Origin: Agrococcus jejuensis
Lineage (GTDB): Bacteria > Actinomycetota > Actinomycetes > Actinomycetales > Microbacteriaceae
Direction: 5' to 3'
Assembly: GCF_900099705.1 (NCBI RefSeq)
Contig: NZ_LT629695.1
Coordinates: 2,852,001 to 2,916,000 of the forward strand
DNA length: 64,000 nucleotides
Of the stretch, positions 56,313-64,000 are shown one piece after another; position 1 is the stretch's first letter, and each line of letters starts with the position of its first letter. The position numbers were made by a program, and so were the translations under genes. The notes under the pieces are model-generated. The model was not told where the DNA came from and did no database searches. It worked only from the letters and a program-made list of their open reading frames with translations.

Positions 56313-57025
56313 TGCGCCGCGTGCTCGGTCGCGCGGCGACGTGGGCGCGCGACTACGTGGATGCGACGCGCGGTCAGGCTCGCGCGTTCGTGCGCCGGAC
56401 GACGCCGCTCGACGTCCCAGCGCCCGACGGCGGCGTGACGGTCGTGCTGCTGCCGGGCGTGTGGGAGCCGTGGCGCTACCTCGAGCCGCTCGCACGCCGA
56501 CTCGCGGCGCGCGGCCTCGGCGTGCGCGCCGTGCCCGCGCTCGGGTGGAACCTCGCACCGTTCGTGGACGCCGTGCCGCTCGTGCGCGCGGCGATCGACG
56601 ACCTGCGCGGTGACGTCGTGCTCGTCGCCCACTCGAAGGGCGGGCTCACGGGCAAGCACGTGCTCGTCGACTGGGCGCGCGACGCGATCGCGGGCACGAC
56701 GCCCGCCGGTGTGCGGCTCCTGGGTCTCGTCGCGGTGGCGACGCCGTTCGAGGGCACGGCGAGAGCGCGGCTGGTGCCGTGGTGGCGGTCGCTGACCGAG
56801 CTGCGCGACGGCTCGCCGGCGCTCGTGGCGCTCGCGGCCGAGACGGCGGCGAACGCGAGCATCGTCGAGCTCGTGCCGTCGTGGGATCCGCACGTGCCGT
56901 CGCACGCGCCGCTCGCGGGCTCGGAGGTCGTGCGGCTGCGCGCCGCCGGCCACTTCTCGAGCCTCGAGTCGCGCGAGACGTTCGACGAGGTGCTCGCGGC
57001 GATCGCGCGCCTGCGCGCCCGCTGA
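56312..57025 (+). CDS. alpha/beta hydrolase, lipase/acyltransferase-like
   Basis: 237 residues. VVLLPGVWEPWRYLEPLARRLA opens the fold, VLVAHSKGGLTGKHVL is the nucleophile elbow (Lys after Ser, as in some lipase-like proteins) and AAGHFSSLESRETF supplies the His. No signal peptide is visible. Substrate unknown. It overlaps the preceding hydrolase gene by one base and is followed by a large hairpin that separates it from the convergent FAD oxidase gene. Confidence 0.82.
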   Translation: MRRVLGRAATWARDYVDATRGQARAFVRRTTPLDVPAPDGGVTVVLLPGVWEPWRYLEPLARRLAARGLGVRAVPALGWNLAPFVDAVPLVRAAIDDLRGDVVLVAHSKGGLTGKHVLVDWARDAIAGTTPAGVRLLGLVAVATPFEGTARARLVPWWRSLTELRDGSPALVALAAETAANASIVELVPSWDPHVPSHAPLAGSEVVRLRAAGHFSSLESRETFDEVLAAIARLRAR

Positions 57026-57049
57026 CGCGCCGCGGTCATCCGGGCATCT

Positions 57050-57120
57050 GCGTTGTGCAGGCGATCAGGGGTGGCGGAGGGAAGATACCCCTCCGACCCC
57101 CGTGATCGCCTGCAAAACGC
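57050..57120. terminator. long near-perfect palindrome between convergent genes
   Basis: The arms 57050-57067 and 57103-57120 pair with one mismatch (18 positions), continue through GGGG/CCCC and CGGAGGG/CCCTCCG, and leave a 7-nt loop at 57082-57088: roughly 28 bp of stem in 71 nt. It probably ends transcription from both sides; a MITE-like origin is possible. Confidence 0.6.
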
Positions 57121-57143
57121 AAACGGCGGAGAGCGTCAGTCCG

Positions 57144-58811
57144 TCAGTCGGCGACGATCGCGCCCGGGTTCAGGATGCGCTGCGGGTCCGACGACGCGAA
57201 GAGGCCGCGCATCACCGCGACGCCCTCGGCCGAGATGTCCTGCTCGAGCCACGGCGCGTGCTCGAAGCCGACGCCGTGGTGGTGCGAGATCGCGCCGCCG
57301 TGGTCGACGAACGACTGCTGGATCGACGCCTTCACCGTCTCGTACTCGGCGATCTCGTCGCCGCCCGCGACCCACGCGAACGTGAAGTACAGGCACGCGC
57401 CCGAGTGGTACGAGTGCGACAGATGGCACATGATCCAGCCGGGCTGGCCGATCTCGTCGTACGCGGCGTTCGCCGCGGCGACCGTCGCGTCGTAGAGCTC
57501 GAGCAGGCGCGACCAGGGCGCGACCGTCTCGGACACGTCGGCGACGGCGCCGCGGTCGAGCAGGAAGTCGCGCAGGTAGGGCGTGTCGAACTTCTTCTGG
57601 TCGTAGAGCACGCCCGGACCGGTGCCCACGCCCATGCCGCCGTACGCCTTGACGATCTTCTCGACGGCGGCGCGCTGACGGCGCACGTGCGCGGGGGAGC
57701 CCTCGTAGCCGATGAACGACATGCAGATGTCCTCGAGGTCCCAGCCCTTGGACTTCATGATCCTGGGCAGCACCTCCTCGGCGAGGATGCGCGACGTGCC
57801 CGTGCGCACCTTGCTCGTCGACATCGAGAACGCCGTCTCTCGCGCATCCGACACGCGCGTGATCGACGGCGCAGCATCCGACGCCGCGATGGCCTGCATC
57901 GCGCCGAGCGCCACGTTCCACCTCGGGAAGAAGTACGCGTGGATCACGCGCTCCTCGGGCACACGGTGCACCTGCACCGACACCTCGGTGATGATGCCGA
58001 GGCGGCCCTCGGAGCCGAGCACCATCTCGCGCACGCTCGGACCCGTGGATGCGTTGGGCATCGGGCGGATGACGAGGGTGCCGTCGGGGCGCACGACGCG
58101 CAGTCCGCGCGTCATCTCGGCGATGTCGCCGTACTTGTCGGACTGCATGCCGCTCGAGCGCGTCGCGACCCAGCCGCCGAGCGTCGAGTGCGTGAACGAG
58201 TCGGGGAAGTGGCCGAGCGTCCAGCCCTTCGCGTTGAGCTGCGCCTCGAGGTCGGGGCCGAGCGCGCCGGCCTGGATGCGGGCGATCTGCGCGGGCTCGT
58301 CGATGTCGACGAGCAGGCGCATGCGGCCCATGTCGACGGAGATGATCGGGCGCGTCTCGGTCGCGGTCGGCTCGAGCGAGCCTGCGATGTTCGAGCCGCC
58401 GCCGAAGGGGATGAGCACGGCGTTCGCGGCGCTCGCCACCTGCACGATGCGCGTGACGTCGTCCTCGTCGCCGGGGTAGGCGACGACGTCGGGGATGCGC
58501 GGCAGGATGCCGGCGCGCACGCGGATGAGGTCGCGGATCGACTTGCCGTAGGTGTGCACGACGCGGTCGAGGTCGTCGACGACGACGTGCTCCTCGCCGA
58601 TCGCGCCGCGCAGCTCGCCGAGCAGCGCATCCGGAGCCTGCGACGCGGGCACGTCGATGTCGGCGAAGTCCGGCGTCGCGACCGCGGGCGCCGAGTGCAG
58701 GTCGAGGCCGACCGCGTGCTCGACGAACGGGGCGAACGCGGGCTTGTCCTCGAAGTGGAATCCGACGCCCTCGCGGCCCCAGCCCCACCACTTCATGTGC
58801 TCGACGGTCAT
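57144..58811 (-). CDS. alkylglycerone-phosphate synthase-like FAD oxidase
   Basis: 555 residues. N-terminal KWWGWGREG, FAD loop PFGGGSN (135-141), GHFPDSFTHSTLGGW (200-214) and ATRSSGMQSDKYGDI (216-230) match the diagnostic AGPS segments. C-terminal GACLYFTFAW carries the catalytic Tyr equivalent, and His510-512 form the HHHGVG triplet needed for catalysis in human AGPS. AGPS swaps the acyl group of acyl-DHAP for a fatty alcohol, creating the ether bond. Relatives include mycobacterial AgpS and D-lactate-like dehydrogenases, but the retained Tyr and His triplet favour true AGPS chemistry. ATGA overlap with the plsC-like gene. Confidence 0.85.
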   Translation of the reverse strand: MTVEHMKWWGWGREGVGFHFEDKPAFAPFVEHAVGLDLHSAPAVATPDFADIDVPASQAPDALLGELRGAIGEEHVVVDDLDRVVHTYGKSIRDLIRVRAGILPRIPDVVAYPGDEDDVTRIVQVASAANAVLIPFGGGSNIAGSLEPTATETRPIISVDMGRMRLLVDIDEPAQIARIQAGALGPDLEAQLNAKGWTLGHFPDSFTHSTLGGWVATRSSGMQSDKYGDIAEMTRGLRVVRPDGTLVIRPMPNASTGPSVREMVLGSEGRLGIITEVSVQVHRVPEERVIHAYFFPRWNVALGAMQAIAASDAAPSITRVSDARETAFSMSTSKVRTGTSRILAEEVLPRIMKSKGWDLEDICMSFIGYEGSPAHVRRQRAAVEKIVKAYGGMGVGTGPGVLYDQKKFDTPYLRDFLLDRGAVADVSETVAPWSRLLELYDATVAAANAAYDEIGQPGWIMCHLSHSYHSGACLYFTFAWVAGGDEIAEYETVKASIQQSFVDHGGAISHHHGVGFEHAPWLEQDISAEGVAVMRGLFASSDPQRILNPGAIVAD

Positions 58812-59509
58812 GCGGGCAGCTCCTTCGCGTCAGGACCGCCGTGGACGGTCACGAGTCTCACGACCTCCGCCTGCACGCGGGCGGTGAGGTCACGGGCGTT
58901 CTCGCCCTCGATGGGGGCGATCGGGTCGCCGAAGACGACCGTCACGGGCAGGCGTCCCGGCTTCGGCCACGACGAGCCGCGGGGATGCGCGTGGTGCGCG
59001 CCGATGAGCGCCACGGGCAGGATCGGCACGTCGAGGGTCGTGGCGAGCGCCGCGGAGCCGGGGCGGAAGTGCGCCATGCGTCCCGACTTCGAGCGCGTCC
59101 CCTCTGGGAAGAGCAGCACGGGGATGCCGCGCTCGAGCAGGCTCCGTGCGGAGACGACCTGCTTGCGGCGGCCGGAGCGCTGCACGGGGAAGGCGTTGAA
59201 GAACAGCGCGGTGAGGCCGCGGCGCCACCACACGTCGAAGAAGTAGTCGGCGGCGGCGCCGATCGCGAGCGTCTTGGCGATGCGCCAGGGGAGCGCCGAG
59301 AGGATCGACGGCGCATCGAGGTGGCTCGAGTGGTTCGCGACGAGGATGAAGGGCTTGCCCTCGAGCGCTGCGGCCTTCTCGGAGTCGACGGCGGTGAGCG
59401 TCACCGTGGCGTGCACGGCGGTCTTCAGCACGCCGCGTTGCGCGCCGAAGCGAGCGACCTCATGCGCCTTCGAGTCGAAGCGGTCGCGGGGATGCGGGGC
59501 GTCTGCCAC
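58808..59509 (-). CDS. 1-acylglycerol-3-phosphate acyltransferase-like (PlsC)
   Basis: 233 residues. The HX4D catalytic motif is NHSSHLD (His60, Asp65), and FPEGTRSKSGRMAHFRPG carries the substrate phosphate-binding EGTR, followed by VPILPVALIGAH. It acylates the sn-2 position of lysophosphatidate, or possibly DHAP, since the neighbouring enzyme needs acyl-DHAP. Peripheral or monotopic membrane enzyme. GTG 59509 lies 6 nt after a TAGGGT box whose first three bases are the stop codon of the SDR gene. Translation is coupled to the AGPS-like gene. Confidence 0.88.
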   Translation of the reverse strand: MADAPHPRDRFDSKAHEVARFGAQRGVLKTAVHATVTLTAVDSEKAAALEGKPFILVANHSSHLDAPSILSALPWRIAKTLAIGAAADYFFDVWWRRGLTALFFNAFPVQRSGRRKQVVSARSLLERGIPVLLFPEGTRSKSGRMAHFRPGSAALATTLDVPILPVALIGAHHAHPRGSSWPKPGRLPVTVVFGDPIAPIEGENARDLTARVQAEVVRLVTVHGGPDAKELPA

Positions 59510-59515
59510 CCGTCG

Positions 59516-59521
59516 ACCCTA
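59516..59521 (-). promoter_or_regulatory. -10 box (TAGGGT) of the plsC-like gene, overlapping the SDR stop codon
   Basis: On minus, TAGGGT is followed by 6 nt and GTG 59509. The TAG of the box is the stop codon of the upstream SDR gene. Confidence 0.45.
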
Positions 59522-60274
59522 CCGATCGCGCCGGGATCGGAGTGCACGCGACACTGCCCGCACGCCGGAGCGCGGCATGATGCGCAGCAATCCCGCGAAG
59601 GCCTTGTATCGAACGCTCGGTATGGACAGCACCTTGCCGCGATCGACGTCGCGAAGACATGCGGCCACGACGGCGTCGGGCTCGAGCCACAGCACGTCGG
59701 GCAGCCCGGAGGCGGCCATGCCCGCGCGCTCGTGGAACTCGGTGCGCACCCAGCCGGGCAGCAGCGCCGTCACGGTGACGCCCGAGCCGTGCAGCTCGTT
59801 CGCGAGCCCCTCGGTCATGGTCGTGACCCACGACTTGATCGCGGCGTACGCACCCATGGCCGTGAGCCCGGCGGTCGACGACACCGTGATGATCGCGCCC
59901 TCGCGGCGCGGGCGCATCGTGCGGGCGGCCGCGGCGGCGAGGCGCTGCGTCGCGCGACCCATGACCTCCCACGCGCGGTCGTGCTCCGACGGGTCCTCGG
60001 AGAGGATCTGCGCATGCATGCCGAATCCGGCACACGTCACGACCATGCCGATCGGCGACGCCTCGGACTCGATCCTGGCGGCGACGCGCTCCTGCTCGTC
60101 GCGCACCGACAGGTCGGCGGGCAGCACCTCGACATCGACCGGCAGCTCGGCAGCCATGGCCTCGAGTCGGGATCGGTCGCGAGCGACGAGGACGAGGTCG
60201 TGACCTCGGGCGGCGAGGGCACGCGCGAAGGCGGCTCCGATGCCGGAGGACGCACCGGTGACGAGCGCACGCAT
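59519..60274 (-). CDS. short-chain dehydrogenase/reductase
   Basis: 251 residues. Cofactor loop GASSGIG (7-13), with ARDRSRL after the second strand favouring NADPH, catalytic Ser near 132-133 and Tyr143-x3-Lys147 (YAAIK). The usual NAG motif reads CAG. No signal or membrane helix is visible. In this neighbourhood it could reduce the ketone of acyl- or alkyl-DHAP to the glycerol-3-phosphate form (the role of PexRAP in animals), but other ketone or aldehyde substrates are possible. ATG 60274 is leaderless and divergent from the next gene. Confidence 0.85.
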   Translation of the reverse strand: MRALVTGASSGIGAAFARALAARGHDLVLVARDRSRLEAMAAELPVDVEVLPADLSVRDEQERVAARIESEASPIGMVVTCAGFGMHAQILSEDPSEHDRAWEVMGRATQRLAAAAARTMRPRREGAIITVSSTAGLTAMGAYAAIKSWVTTMTEGLANELHGSGVTVTALLPGWVRTEFHERAGMAASGLPDVLWLEPDAVVAACLRDVDRGKVLSIPSVRYKAFAGLLRIMPRSGVRAVSRALRSRRDR

Positions 60275-60281
60275 GCGCCCC

Positions 60282-60287
60282 ACCCTA
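60282..60287 (-). promoter_or_regulatory. -10 box (TAGGGT) of the SDR gene, leaderless
   Basis: On minus, TAGGGT is followed by 7 nt and ATG 60274. Confidence 0.5.
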
Positions 60288-60339
60288 GCCGCGGCGACGC
60301 GCGGCGCGGCGCAGCCCCGGAGAGCCATGCCGACGCGGG

Positions 60340-60345
60340 TATCGT
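60340..60345 (+). promoter_or_regulatory. -10 box (TATCGT) of the desaturase-like gene, leaderless
   Basis: TATCGT is followed by 7 nt and ATG 60353. With the SDR promoter it forms a 78-bp divergent control region for the lipid cluster. Confidence 0.5.
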
Positions 60346-60352
60346 CGAGACG

Positions 60353-61156
60353 ATGAGCCGCACCACTGCCCCCGAGCGGGCCTTCGACGTCCGCGCCTTC
60401 GCGCGCGACGCGCGCGGCAGCCACCGCGACGCCCTCGACCTCGCCGCCTTCGTGGACGCACCCCTCGACGACGTCGCGCTGCGCCTCGTCGCGGTGCTGC
60501 ACCACGTCGAGGCCGCCACGATGGGGCGCCTGCGCGACATGCTCGTGACCGCGACGCACAAGGACGCCCGAGTGACGGCGTTCCTCGTGACGTGGGCGTA
60601 CGAGCGGTTCTGGATCGCCGACGCCTTGAAGGCGATCCTCGACGCGCACGACCACCCCACCGAGCTGCACGGCCGCACCCGCTTCCGGCCGCGCGAGCTC
60701 GCCGAGCGCCGCGGCCCCGTGCGCCGCGCGATCCTCGCGAACCTCACCGGCACCGACGTCATCGCCGTGCACGCATCCACGGGGCTCGTCGACGAGTGGA
60801 TCATCGGCGAGGCGTTCGGGGCGCTCGCACGCCACGCGAAGCACGCGACGGTCGACGTGCTCGCCGGCATCGTCGACGACGTGCAGTCGCGCCACCTCGA
60901 GTTCCTGCAGCAGGAGGCCGAGCGCCGCCTCGCCGCCTCGCCCCGCGCCCGTCGCCTGTCGAGGCGCGCGATCCTCGGCGGCGCCTGGCCCATCGGCGCC
61001 ATCCACGTGCCGGCCCGCGCCCGTCACCTGCTCGAGCGCCTCACCTTCGCAGGCGCCCACGGCCGCCTCGCGCTCGAGCGCGTGCGCGACCGCGTCGCCG
61101 CACTGCCGGGCATGGATGCGACAGCGACGCGTCTGGCTGCCAGGCTGGTCGCATGA
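60353..61156 (+). CDS. acyl-ACP-desaturase-like (ferritin-fold) protein lacking several metal ligands
   Basis: 267 residues. It aligns with the protein encoded at 63491: LHHVEAATMGRLRDML with the EYHTVCYLRDLL helix, YERFWIADALKAIL with EEFWHGEALAAVL, DEWIIGEAFGALARH with NEYSANAAYHRLAK. That protein has the two E-x-x-H di-iron motifs' first copy; here RFWI replaces EFWH, and the second appears as QSRH. Thus three of the six expected ligands are missing and a di-iron site is unlikely. It may be a regulatory or scaffold partner. Its ATGA end overlaps the reductase gene. Confidence 0.65.
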   Translation: MSRTTAPERAFDVRAFARDARGSHRDALDLAAFVDAPLDDVALRLVAVLHHVEAATMGRLRDMLVTATHKDARVTAFLVTWAYERFWIADALKAILDAHDHPTELHGRTRFRPRELAERRGPVRRAILANLTGTDVIAVHASTGLVDEWIIGEAFGALARHAKHATVDVLAGIVDDVQSRHLEFLQQEAERRLAASPRARRLSRRAILGGAWPIGAIHVPARARHLLERLTFAGAHGRLALERVRDRVAALPGMDATATRLAARLVA

Positions 61157-63447
61157 GCCCCACCCCGAAGCCGCACGACCTCGGCGACGCCCACGTCCTC
61201 CTGACCGGAGCCACGGGATTCGTCGGCCAGGCCATCCTCGAGCGGCTGCTGAGCTCGTTCCCCGACACGACGATCGCGATCCTCGTGCGCGGCAAGGGCG
61301 ACGAGACGGCCGAGCACCGCGCGGCGGCGCTGCTGCGCAAGCCCGTGTTCGACGCGTGGCGGGCCAAGGTCGGCGACGAGGTCGCGGATGCTGCGATCGG
61401 CACGCGCATCACGGTCATCGACTCGGGGCTCGACGAGGTCGCCCCGCTGCCGACGGGGCTCGACGTGGTCATCCACTCGGCGGCGAGCGTGTCGTTCGAC
61501 CCGCCGATCGACGAGTCGTTCGACACGAACCTCGGTGGCGCCGTGGGCCTGTACGAGGCCGTGCTCGCGACGGGTGCGAACCCGCACGTCGTGCACATCT
61601 CCACCTGCTACGTCGGCGGCCTGCGCAAGGGCGTCGCGCTCGAGCAGAGCCTCGACCACGACGTCGACTGGCGCCTCGAGCACAAGGCTGCGCGCCAGGC
61701 CCGCGAGCGCGTCGAGATCCAGTCGCGCATGCCCGAGCTGCTCACGGGGTTCCTCGACGCCGCCCGCGCCGAGCACGGCAAGGCCGGCCCCCTCGCCGTC
61801 GCGTCCGCGAGCGAGGAGGCGCGTCGCGCCTGGGTGACCGAGCAGCTCGTCGAGGCCGGTCGCACGCGTGCGCAGAGCCTCGGCTGGACCGACGTCTACA
61901 CGCTCACGAAGGCGTTCGCCGAGCGCGCCGCCGAGCAGCTGTGGGGCGCCGAGCGCCGCCTGTCGATCGTGCGCCCGTCGATCATCGAGTCGGCCGCGCA
62001 GCACCCGTACCCGGGCTGGATCGACGGCTTCAAGGTCGCCGACCCGCTCATCGTCGCCTACGGCAAGGGCCAGCTGCCCGAGTTCCCCGGCTCGCCCGAC
62101 TCGGTGCTCGACGTCATCCCCGTCGACCACGTCGTCAACGCGGCGATCGCGGCGGCGACGCAGCCGCCCGCCGCAGGCAGCCCCGCCTACTACCAGGTGG
62201 CCTCCGGCCGTTCGAACCCGCTGCCGTACCACGAGATCTTCGAGGCGGTGCGGACGTACTTCACGGCCCACCCCATGCAGCAGGGCGACGCGCCCGTGAT
62301 CGTGCCCGACTGGACGTTCCCCGGCGGCATGCGCGTCGACCGCCGGCTCGCGCAGCAGCAGCGCCTCGTCACTGCGGCGCAGAGCGCCCTGGGCGTGCTG
62401 CCTACCACCGACCAGACGCGCCGGTGGAAGACGTCGACCGACAAGGCCGTGCGCGACATCGGCCGCCTGCGCCAGTTCATCGCGCTCTACAAGGTCTACG
62501 TGCAGTCGGAGATCATCTTCGACGACGCGAACACGAAGGCGCTGCACGCCTCCCTGCCCGCCGAGATCGCCGCCGACCGCGGCTTCGACATCACGGCGAT
62601 CGACTGGGACCACTACCTGCAGCGCGTGCACCTGCCGGCCGTCACCGAGCTCGCGACGTCGTTCTCGGCGCGCCGCCGCGCCAAGGCGAAGGCTGCGATC
62701 GCCGAGTCGGCAGCCGGCCTGCCGCAGCGCTCCGACGTGCTCGCGGTGTTCGACCTCGAGGGCACGCTCATCGACTCGAACATCGTCGAGCAGTACCTGT
62801 GGGTGCGCACGAACGGCGTGCGCCGCACCGCGTACCCGGCCGAGGTCGTGCGCATGCTGCGCGACGTGCCCCGCTACCTCGCGGCCGAGCGCCGCGACCG
62901 CGGCGAGTTCATCCGCGAGTTCATGCGCCGCTACGAGGGCGTCTCGGTCGAGCGCCTGGAGCGCATCGTGCAGGGCGCGGGCTACCGCGACCGGATGCTG
63001 TCGCACGCGAGCGCCGACGCCATCGAGCGCGTGCTGCAGCACCGCGCCGCCGGCCACCGCACCGTGCTCGTCACGGGCTCGTTCGATCGCCTCGCGGCGC
63101 CCGTCGCGGCGCTGTTCGACGAGGTCGTCGCCGGCAGCATGCACGAGCGCGACGGTCGCCTCACCGGCTACCTCGCGACGCCGCCGCTCGTCGACGAGGC
63201 GCGCGCGTCGTGGCTCGCGCAGTACGCCGACGAGCACGGCGCCGACCTGTCGGCGTCGTACGGCTACGGCGACAGCCACGCCGACCTGGAGTGGCTGCAG
63301 CTCGTCGGCACGCCGACGGCCGTCAACCCGGACTCGCGACTCGCCACGGAGGCGGACCGTCGTGGGTGGACGTCGGTACGCTGGCGTCGAGGTCCGGCAG
63401 TCCGTTCGCGGTCGCTGCTCCGAACCATCCCGGAGACGACCGCCTAG
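61153..63447 (+). CDS. fatty acyl-CoA reductase fused to HAD-IB phosphatase-like domain
   Basis: 764 residues. The N-terminal ~500 residues form an extended-SDR fatty acyl-CoA reductase: TGATGFVG (18-25), VIHSAASVSFD, Tyr249-x3-Lys253 (YTLTK) and a FAR_C-like region (AIDWDHYLQRVHLPAVTE). The C-terminal part is a HAD-IB phosphatase-like domain starting DLEGTLIDSN (Asp534; the second Asp of DxD is Glu), with VLVTGSFDRLAAPVA and YGYGDSHADLEWL. The first domain should reduce acyl-CoA to fatty alcohol using NADPH; the second may dephosphorylate a lipid or be regulatory. Overlaps the preceding gene by 4 nt. CAGGCT lies 6 nt upstream of the ATG. Confidence 0.85.
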   Translation: MSPTPKPHDLGDAHVLLTGATGFVGQAILERLLSSFPDTTIAILVRGKGDETAEHRAAALLRKPVFDAWRAKVGDEVADAAIGTRITVIDSGLDEVAPLPTGLDVVIHSAASVSFDPPIDESFDTNLGGAVGLYEAVLATGANPHVVHISTCYVGGLRKGVALEQSLDHDVDWRLEHKAARQARERVEIQSRMPELLTGFLDAARAEHGKAGPLAVASASEEARRAWVTEQLVEAGRTRAQSLGWTDVYTLTKAFAERAAEQLWGAERRLSIVRPSIIESAAQHPYPGWIDGFKVADPLIVAYGKGQLPEFPGSPDSVLDVIPVDHVVNAAIAAATQPPAAGSPAYYQVASGRSNPLPYHEIFEAVRTYFTAHPMQQGDAPVIVPDWTFPGGMRVDRRLAQQQRLVTAAQSALGVLPTTDQTRRWKTSTDKAVRDIGRLRQFIALYKVYVQSEIIFDDANTKALHASLPAEIAADRGFDITAIDWDHYLQRVHLPAVTELATSFSARRRAKAKAAIAESAAGLPQRSDVLAVFDLEGTLIDSNIVEQYLWVRTNGVRRTAYPAEVVRMLRDVPRYLAAERRDRGEFIREFMRRYEGVSVERLERIVQGAGYRDRMLSHASADAIERVLQHRAAGHRTVLVTGSFDRLAAPVAALFDEVVAGSMHERDGRLTGYLATPPLVDEARASWLAQYADEHGADLSASYGYGDSHADLEWLQLVGTPTAVNPDSRLATEADRRGWTSVRWRRGPAVRSRSLLRTIPETTA

Positions 63448-63490
63448 GGCGGTCGCCGCATCATCTAGAGGGGAACGGGCGAGACCGCAC

Positions 63491-64000
63491 ATGGCCTTCG
63501 ACATCGACAGGTACACGAAGCAGTCCGAGGGCGTCGAGTGGGGCGACCTCGACCTCGACGTGTTCGACGAGCAGCCGCTCGACGAGCCGACGCTGCGCAC
63601 GCTGCGCTACATGTGCGACGTCGAGTACCACACGGTCTGCTACCTGCGCGATCTGCTCACGACGCCGTCGCACAAGGAGCCCGAGGTGGGCGCCTTCATG
63701 ACGATGTGGAACCGCGAGGAGTTCTGGCACGGCGAGGCGCTCGCCGCCGTGCTCGCGAAGCACGACATCACCGTCGACTACGACGTGCTCAAGGCGCGCC
63801 GCGTGAAGCTGGGGTGGAAGGACCGCCTCGACCCCATCAAGCAGTCGCTGCTCGGCAACGTCGTCGGCCACGACTTCGTCGCCGTGCACATGACGTACGG
63901 CGCCGCCAACGAGTACTCGGCGAACGCCGCGTACCACCGCCTCGCGAAGATGGTCACGCATCCCGTGCTCACGCCGCTGCTGAAGCGCATCGCGATCCAG
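63491..64000 (+). CDS. acyl-ACP desaturase-like di-iron protein, 3' end outside window
   Basis: 170 residues are visible and the frame runs off the right edge. Ferritin-like helices carry DVEYHTVCYL (first Glu), NREEFWHGEAL (E-x-x-H), and NEYSANAAYHRLAKMVTHPVLTPLLKRIAI, which in soluble acyl-ACP desaturases precedes the last E-x-x-H just beyond the window. It would use O2 and two irons to oxidise an acyl chain, or perhaps the alkyl or aldehyde products of this cluster. ATG 63491 lies 43 nt after the reductase gene, with AGGGGAA about 18 nt upstream. Confidence 0.75.
   Translation, partial: MAFDIDRYTKQSEGVEWGDLDLDVFDEQPLDEPTLRTLRYMCDVEYHTVCYLRDLLTTPSHKEPEVGAFMTMWNREEFWHGEALAAVLAKHDITVDYDVLKARRVKLGWKDRLDPIKQSLLGNVVGHDFVAVHMTYGAANEYSANAAYHRLAKMVTHPVLTPLLKRIAIQ

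Follow-up and report, generated by a model that had tools for sequence, protein, structure and literature searches.

Which genes could give an aerobic actinobacterium its ether lipids, and could the same genes also supply the vinyl ether bond of plasmalogens? The question is raised by a six-gene cluster at the end of a 64,000-nucleotide stretch of Agrococcus jejuensis DNA (the window; contig NZ_LT629695.1, positions 2,852,001 to 2,916,000), which is part of a one-contig, 3.4-Mb Microbacteriaceae genome. The cluster encodes an enzyme resembling alkylglycerone-phosphate synthase (AGPS), a PlsC-type acyltransferase, a short-chain dehydrogenase/reductase (SDR), a fatty acyl-CoA reductase (FAR) joined to a HAD-IB phosphatase-like domain, and two ferritin-like di-iron proteins, diA and diB. 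The six genes very probably direct aerobic synthesis of ether phospholipids or glycolipids by an AGPS-type route, whereas the case that diA/diB would form a vinyl ether is about evenly balanced. These assessments draw on gene identities, on conserved residues and linkage, and on the presence of the genes in Subtercola; from these we infer all reactions, their order and the substrate of diA/diB.

Layout of the cluster

All six genes are present with open frames. Coordinates below are those of the window (DHAP, dihydroxyacetone phosphate).

57144..58811, minus strand: AGPS-like alkylglycerone-phosphate synthase, 555 aa; Pfam FAD_binding_4 and FAD-oxidase_C
58808..59509, minus strand: PlsC-type acyltransferase, 233 aa, GTG start; Pfam PF01553, E 1.2e-21
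59519..60274, minus strand: SDR, 251 aa, candidate alkyl-DHAP reductase; Pfam PF00106, E 1.4e-35
60275..60352, no strand: divergent intergenic region between SDR and diA, 78 bp
60353..61156, plus strand: diA, 267 aa, ferritin-like di-iron paralogue with a degenerate ligand set; matches the diB family profile
61153..63447, plus strand: FAR-HAD, fatty acyl-CoA reductase with HAD-IB phosphatase-like domain, 764 aa
63491..64285 (63491..64000 in the window), plus strand: diB, 264 aa, desaturase-like protein of the ferritin-like di-iron type; full di-iron ligand set

An earlier, sequence-only reading of the window had placed AGPS, PlsC and SDR genes on one strand and FAR/HAD and two desaturase-like genes on the other, with overlapping genes and a 78-bp divergent region between the two groups. 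We recovered the same picture: the six open genes are arranged in this way, the divergent gap is 78 bp, and ATGA overlaps occur at two junctions, PlsC/AGPS and diA/FAR. The SDR-PlsC and FAR-diB gaps are 9 bp and 43 bp, respectively. The 3' end of diB lies 285 bp beyond the window end and was read on the same contig (L004:7491-8285). A simple scan of 57000-64000 returned no sigma-70-like site.

The AGPS-like enzyme and its partners

By its sequence, the FAD enzyme is AGPS-like. Its best matches among solved structures are alkyl-DHAP synthases, at E 1.7e-118 and 1.2e-81, which we take to come from Dictyostelium and guinea pig, respectively. These are far ahead of the next structure group (E 3.7e-20 or weaker), and on this ground we rejected a D-lactate, glycolate or 2-hydroxyglutarate dehydrogenase as the identity of the enzyme. 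Alignment places R319, R414, Y475 and H510-H512 of the window protein at R419, R515, Y578 and H615-617 of the guinea-pig enzyme, which presumably have active-site roles. These six residues are identical in 94/94 aligned sequences (94 of 97 loci, the three omitted having matches to <80% of the query; some genomes are in both collections); another tyrosine, residue 468, differs in 3/94. The active-site set is also kept in nine divergent AGPS relatives at 32-37% identity. The HHH triplet (residues 510-512) that had been picked out beforehand and the tyrosine Y475 are thus invariant among the aligned sequences. The same sequence-only reading had allowed for a 2-hydroxyacid dehydrogenase; when that possibility was run on the sequence, AGPS proved nearer, with its active-site residues kept. 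Across the phylum, AGPS matches at E 1e-60 are found in 76/396 genomes.

Conserved residues were likewise counted in the partner enzymes. Among PlsC rows of at least 150 bits and at least 80% coverage, the His and Asp of HX4D are present in 86/86 and the Glu of EGTR in 85/86. The SDR has its Tyr and Lys in 91/91 rows and its Ser in 70/91. FAR-HAD matches Pfam NAD_binding_4 (E 8.9e-45) and HAD (E 1.6e-32), and it reaches 102.1 bits against TIGR01490, with a cut-off of 98.3; its match to Sterile (PF03015; E 3.2e-07, 30.9 bits) lies under the cut-off of 35.4. The NAD_binding_4 motifs GxxGxxG and YxxxK are kept, with the Tyr, the Lys and the HAD nucleophile present in 93/93 rows. The D-x-E motif of the HAD domain, which is possibly a lipid phosphatase, is present in 92/93.

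The di-iron pair

The di-iron ligands of diB (E45, E77xxH80, E141 and E171xxH174) are complete in 30/30 sequences and invariant in a 40-row alignment. The two proteins are paralogues (hhalign 100%, E 3.1e-53), and in diA the ligand set has degenerated. In 35 chosen diA sequences, the Glu of the first ExxH is replaced by Lys or Arg (35/35) and its His by Ile, Val, Met, Leu or Thr (35/35), while the Glu of the second ExxH is replaced by Lys or Gln (35/35). This corrects the earlier description of two desaturase-like proteins: the ligand set is full in diB only, and diA lacks three of the six. diA is likely an inactive partner of diB.

Neither protein matches a Pfam or NCBIfam family at E 0.001. 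At a looser limit, FA_desaturase_2 (best E 1.5e-5) and Rubrerythrin are each matched by 39/40 diB members; the one member with bits shown scores 15.3 against the FA_desaturase_2 cut-off of 22.7. Among solved structures, the diB profile matches Mycobacterium tuberculosis DesA2 at E 0.001, behind a designed helix bundle at E 1.7e-6 (29 residues), and the diA profile has no match in the PDB. With its likeness below threshold, we rejected diB as a plain acyl-ACP desaturase.

We also searched for the known vinyl-ether enzymes. PF10520, the family of CarF and PEDS1, is found in 0/150 Microbacteriaceae genomes. Fourteen controls were likewise silent, yet the model matches 18/396 phylum genomes, mostly of one family (f18), so the search works despite the silent controls. 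One of these 18 genomes (G278) is also among the 76 with AGPS at E 1e-60. PF09989, which we take to mark the anaerobic plasmalogen synthase PlsA, presumably the product of the anaerobic plasmalogen-forming reductase gene, was positive in 4/14 controls. It is found in 1/150 Microbacteriaceae genomes (G062, with no diB match and no close AGPS) and is absent from the genome of the window. Given these counts, we rejected CarF/PEDS1 and PlsA as the usual vinyl-ether gene of the family. Genome G090, taken to be that of Subtercola vilae, whose dimethylacetals are discussed below, is without both markers, on the assumption that the surveys shared the same draw of 150 genomes. A PF00487 membrane desaturase occurs in 11/11 genomes tested, which include S. 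vilae and two cluster-free genomes of the same genus as the window; present with or without the cluster, it was rejected as a cluster-specific partner.

A proposed pathway

The following route would account for the six genes. The FAR domain would reduce branched acyl-CoA to fatty alcohol, and the PlsC-type acyltransferase would make acyl-DHAP. AGPS would then replace the acyl chain of acyl-DHAP with the fatty alcohol, SDR would reduce the resulting alkyl-DHAP to alkyl-glycerol-3-phosphate, and PlsC would add the sn-2 acyl chain. The single PlsC of the window cluster must serve as the DHAP acyltransferase, the sn-2 acyltransferase or both, or a gene elsewhere must help. Finally, diB with the ligand-poor diA, using O2 and electrons, would introduce the 1'-2' vinyl ether bond to give plasmalogens, in place of CarF/PEDS1. 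The statement as a whole, an AGPS-type ether-lipid route with a diA/diB vinyl-ether step leading to plasmalogens, could equally well prove right or wrong.

Linkage and distribution

Among 150 Microbacteriaceae genomes, 40 have a close AGPS (at least 62% identity), 44 have a close diB (at least 61% identity) and 38 have both, the last spread over 27 genera. AGPS without diB occurs in two genomes (G101 and G113), both incomplete assemblies; in G113 the contig also holds a diA-like match. diB without close AGPS occurs in six, namely one whose contig starts inside PlsC (G107) and five with lone diA-diB pairs. Genomes having both genes (38) outnumber those with AGPS alone (2) or diB alone (6), and the association is more than chance; Fisher's exact test gives p 9e-27, a value that is not a probability since the genomes are related. 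The divergent arrangement is also more than chance: SDR and diA are divergent and adjacent in 82 of the 90 loci having both (some genomes are counted twice, as the two collections overlap), with a gap of 54-347 bp and a median of 113, extrapolated from match ends.

Locus counts by tblastn covered 118 loci (37 + 81), of which 7 are without a strong diB (L061-L067) and 111 entered a midpoint-rooted diB tree containing 97 different sequences. Within the tree, 85 loci have a close AGPS, 4 a divergent AGPS, 6 FAR without a strong AGPS (some cut by a contig end) and 16 neither; these 16 comprise 13 diA-diB pairs and 3 diB loci in which no diA was found. The divergent AGPS (32-33% identity, active-site residues kept) is joined to diA-FAR-diB in four loci belonging to one diB clade. 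Among the best 80 of 219 matches, the nearest named locus is that of Agrococcus jejuensis DE0131, with a diB 98% identical and the six genes in the same order. The same best 80 include the cluster beyond Microbacteriaceae, in Streptomyces, Ruania and Phytoactinopolyspora, and, with a divergent AGPS, in metagenome-assembled genomes (MAGs) labelled Propionibacteriaceae or Propionicimonas. Not every genome of the window's own genus has the cluster: two of them, G049 and G119, have neither a diB match nor a close AGPS.

Some individual loci show further features. In Subtercola loci L152:12126-14395 (S. vilae), L048, L047, L192 and L193, the interval between FAR and diB contains a Lar_N protein, which is lactate racemase-like, and a further PlsC; genome G108 has extra sequence at the same spot. 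AGPS matches fall into several pieces in Arenivirga flava (L068 and L138), Homoserinibacter gongjuensis (L084) and Pseudolysinimonas kribbensis (L050 and L083), as do FAR in L084 and PlsC in L050 and L083; these broken matches are either sequencing errors or decaying genes. A 2.35-Mb plasmid record of Streptomyces sp. NBC_01450 (NZ_CP109481.1) carries relatives of diB and AGPS ~5.5 kb apart, a hint that the cluster may be mobile. When plasmids were searched with a Subtercola replicon, no named record matched closely. Two records, one titled Corynebacterium-like bacterium B27 (L119), whose diB lies inside the Herbiconiux group in the trees, and one titled as an Acidobacteria bacterium MAG (L075), whose diB groups with Microbacteriaceae, are probably mislabelled or mis-binned.

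Subtercola and its dimethylacetals

Dimethylacetals (DMAs) in a fatty-acid profile report aldehydes and vinyl ethers alike. The sequence-only reading had pointed to DMAs in some Microbacteriaceae such as Subtercola. All 12 of 12 Subtercola genomes have a close AGPS, a close diB and a second, diA-like match. The six genes, with intact diB ligands, are present in loci of S. vilae (G090), of S. endophyticus (as which G545 is taken) and of a further genome (G549), and FAR was read in four Subtercola loci (L048, L152, L192 and L193).

The Subtercola DMAs are borne out in print: they are stated for all species of the genus and have been a marker of this aerobic genus since Mannisto et al. 2000 (PMC5945732 and citation therein). 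S. vilae has 17.0% i-16:0 DMA, 3.2% a-15:0 DMA and 1.9% a-17:0 DMA. Compared with it, S. frigoramans, S. boreus and S. lobariae are lower in i-16:0 DMA (6.9-13.3%) and higher in a-15:0 DMA (9.7-11.0%) and a-17:0 DMA (2.6-4.0%). Together, the listed DMAs account for ~22% of the peak area of S. vilae and for 29% of that of S. boreus (PMC5945732).

Routine fatty-acid typing may read a-15:0 DMA as C14:0 2-OH (PMC7472656). The type strains of S. vilae and S. boreus are listed with 15.6% and 10.4% 2-OH C14:0, respectively (PMC9287328), and the same species with 3.2% and 11.0% a-15:0 DMA (PMC5945732). We infer that the 2-OH C14:0 of PMC9287328 is misread a-15:0 DMA; the two figures agree well in S. 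boreus and poorly in S. vilae. In Salinibacterium metalliresistens, three branched acids total 94%, and no peak of the 2-OH C14:0 type is mentioned among its major acids (PMC10713820); other Salinibacterium species carry the cluster.

Alternative explanations

Several observations weigh against an ether-lipid route that ends in a diA/diB vinyl-ether step. The pair occurs without FAR, bar weak HAD/Rossmann fragments, in five of the 150 genomes, four of which have no AGPS at E 1e-60 (the fifth, G142, has one at 36%). Such lone pairs are found in Leifsonia flava (G102), Agromyces and Glaciibacter, the latter two searched at locus stretches only. In addition, a diB match at E 0.001 occurs in 30/396 phylum genomes, of which 3 are Microbacteriaceae, 7 have very weak matches (E >1e-5) and 20 have remote homologues; 3 of these 20 (G289, G360 and G511) also have AGPS at E 1e-60. 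Around the remote homologues (30-48%), in other actinobacterial families, neither AGPS nor FAR adjoins in 15/15 stretches, and the di-iron ligands are intact in 14/14 aligned, one split gene being left out.

L055-L059, L092, L097, L099, L102, L104, L117, L131, L137: diA-diB pairs without AGPS or FAR nearby
L174-L187, L191: remote homologues of diB in other families of actinobacteria, di-iron ligands intact

Being without FAR and mostly without AGPS, the lone pairs suggest at least one use of diA/diB apart from the ether-lipid route. By eye, we found no common partner gene beside the lone pairs (L055, L057, L058 and L059) or beside remote diB (10 proteins, 6 loci). Rooting the tree on 13 of the 15 remote homologues puts the lone pairs inside a 17-row clade (support 100/100) that takes in five clustered rows as well; a single origin is supported at 65/88, and the deepest branching of the diB family is left unresolved. 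It is therefore likely, short of proof, that the lone pairs descend from a clustered ancestor by loss of AGPS and FAR. AGPS at 58-61% also occurs without diB in two phylum genomes, and the incomplete genome G101 has four other cluster genes and no diB match.

The fatty-acid profiles add to these points. S. endophyticus, a cluster carrier, has no C14:0 2-OH in PMC9287328, where summed feature 8 (18:1) makes up 76.7%, 52.1%, 40.4%, 11.8% and 0.8% in S. endophyticus, S. lobariae, S. frigoramans, S. boreus and S. vilae, respectively. High 18:1 in Subtercola cluster carriers would fit a mid-chain desaturase. The table of PMC5945732 is contrary to these values, with no 18:1 in S. frigoramans, S. boreus or S. 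lobariae; the disagreement must come from a difference of strain, medium or purity in one of the data sets. Moreover, S. vilae also has a PF00487 desaturase, and another vinyl-ether enzyme may be present there.

The cluster might instead yield saturated alkyl-ether lipids only, with diA/diB desaturating or hydroxylating some other lipid, such as a membrane acyl chain, and the Subtercola DMAs arising through another enzyme or an ordinary membrane desaturase. The lone pairs, the intact ligands of lone remote homologues, the abundant 18:1 in three of five Subtercola species (PMC9287328), the PF00487 desaturase in 11/11 genomes and the weak likeness of diB to acyl-ACP desaturases all speak for this. 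We nevertheless consider it rather unlikely. S. vilae has an intact diB but at most traces of unsaturated acids in its published profiles (no a-15:1 in PMC5945732; 17:1 only 1.3% in PMC9287328). The PF00487 gene is found in two cluster-free genomes of the same genus and so does not track the cluster, and diB is kept in 38/40 AGPS genomes.

Two further alternatives are each, in our judgement, very improbable. DMAs also derive from aldehydes, and with FAR in all four Subtercola loci read, the Subtercola DMAs could come from free or bound fatty aldehydes rather than plasmalogens, AGPS still producing alkyl ethers or another product. However, the DMA totals of S. vilae (~22%) and S. boreus (29%; PMC5945732) are, by our judgement, large for free aldehyde. 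At a similarly low level of probability, the AGPS-like enzyme could use another acceptor, the cluster then giving a non-ether lipid such as a wax-like compound or a secondary metabolite. AGPS-like FAD enzymes are common in actinobacteria, as the phylum count indicates, and we found no measured substrate in the literature searched for an enzyme of this AGPS clade. Yet the tested AGPS active-site residues are kept, the partners FAR, SDR and PlsC suit an ether route, and Subtercola does have DMAs (PMC5945732).

Relation to known systems and significance

The proposed ether-lipid route shares AGPS active-site residues, a fatty acyl-CoA reductase, a reductase and an acyltransferase with the animal peroxisomal pathway of FAR1, GNPAT, AGPS, PexRAP and PEDS1 (PMC9131029). 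It differs in that the cluster has no separate GNPAT-type gene, PEDS1-family proteins are absent from the 150 Microbacteriaceae genomes, and the six linked genes include a HAD domain fused to FAR and a ferritin-like di-iron pair. In Myxococcus xanthus, the elb operon and the MXAN_1676-1674 operon, with CarF, likewise have AGPS beside a FAR-like/acyltransferase gene and a putative NAD-dependent enzyme, and ElbB (HAD-like) and ElbD (with a FAR1-like domain) recall FAR-HAD (PMC9131029). There, however, CarF forms the vinyl ether, AGPS is a minor contributor, and the accessible portion of the source mentions no ferritin-like di-iron pair. The anaerobic plasmalogen-forming reductases give the same kind of product, but through anaerobic reduction of diacyl lipids (PMC9702350), and their PF09989 marker is nearly absent here (1/150). 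diB shares weak sequence likeness and the E...ExxH...E...ExxH pattern with acyl-ACP desaturases (FA_desaturase_2, M. tuberculosis DesA2); unlike them, it stays under the Pfam cut-off in the member shown, is paired with the ligand-poor diA and lies beside AGPS.

Among the papers listed in our literature search, which left most subscription journals outside, neither the cluster nor a ferritin-like enzyme forming vinyl ethers was described, which is not proof of novelty, and no gene was proposed for the Subtercola DMAs. We tentatively suggest, with a confidence just short of even, that diA/diB would be a third independent solution to vinyl ether formation, unrelated to CarF/PEDS1 and to the anaerobic reductases, in aerobic actinobacteria, where it would have been hidden by the misreading of a-15:0 DMA as C14:0 2-OH.

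The cluster thus offers a concrete six-gene candidate for the Subtercola DMAs, with AGPS, diA and diB in every one of the 12 Subtercola genomes and in many other genera, and diA/diB is a candidate for a new class of O2-dependent vinyl-ether-forming enzyme. If this is true, older reports of C14:0 2-OH in actinobacteria would need re-reading, and aerobic plasmalogens may be commoner among bacteria than believed.

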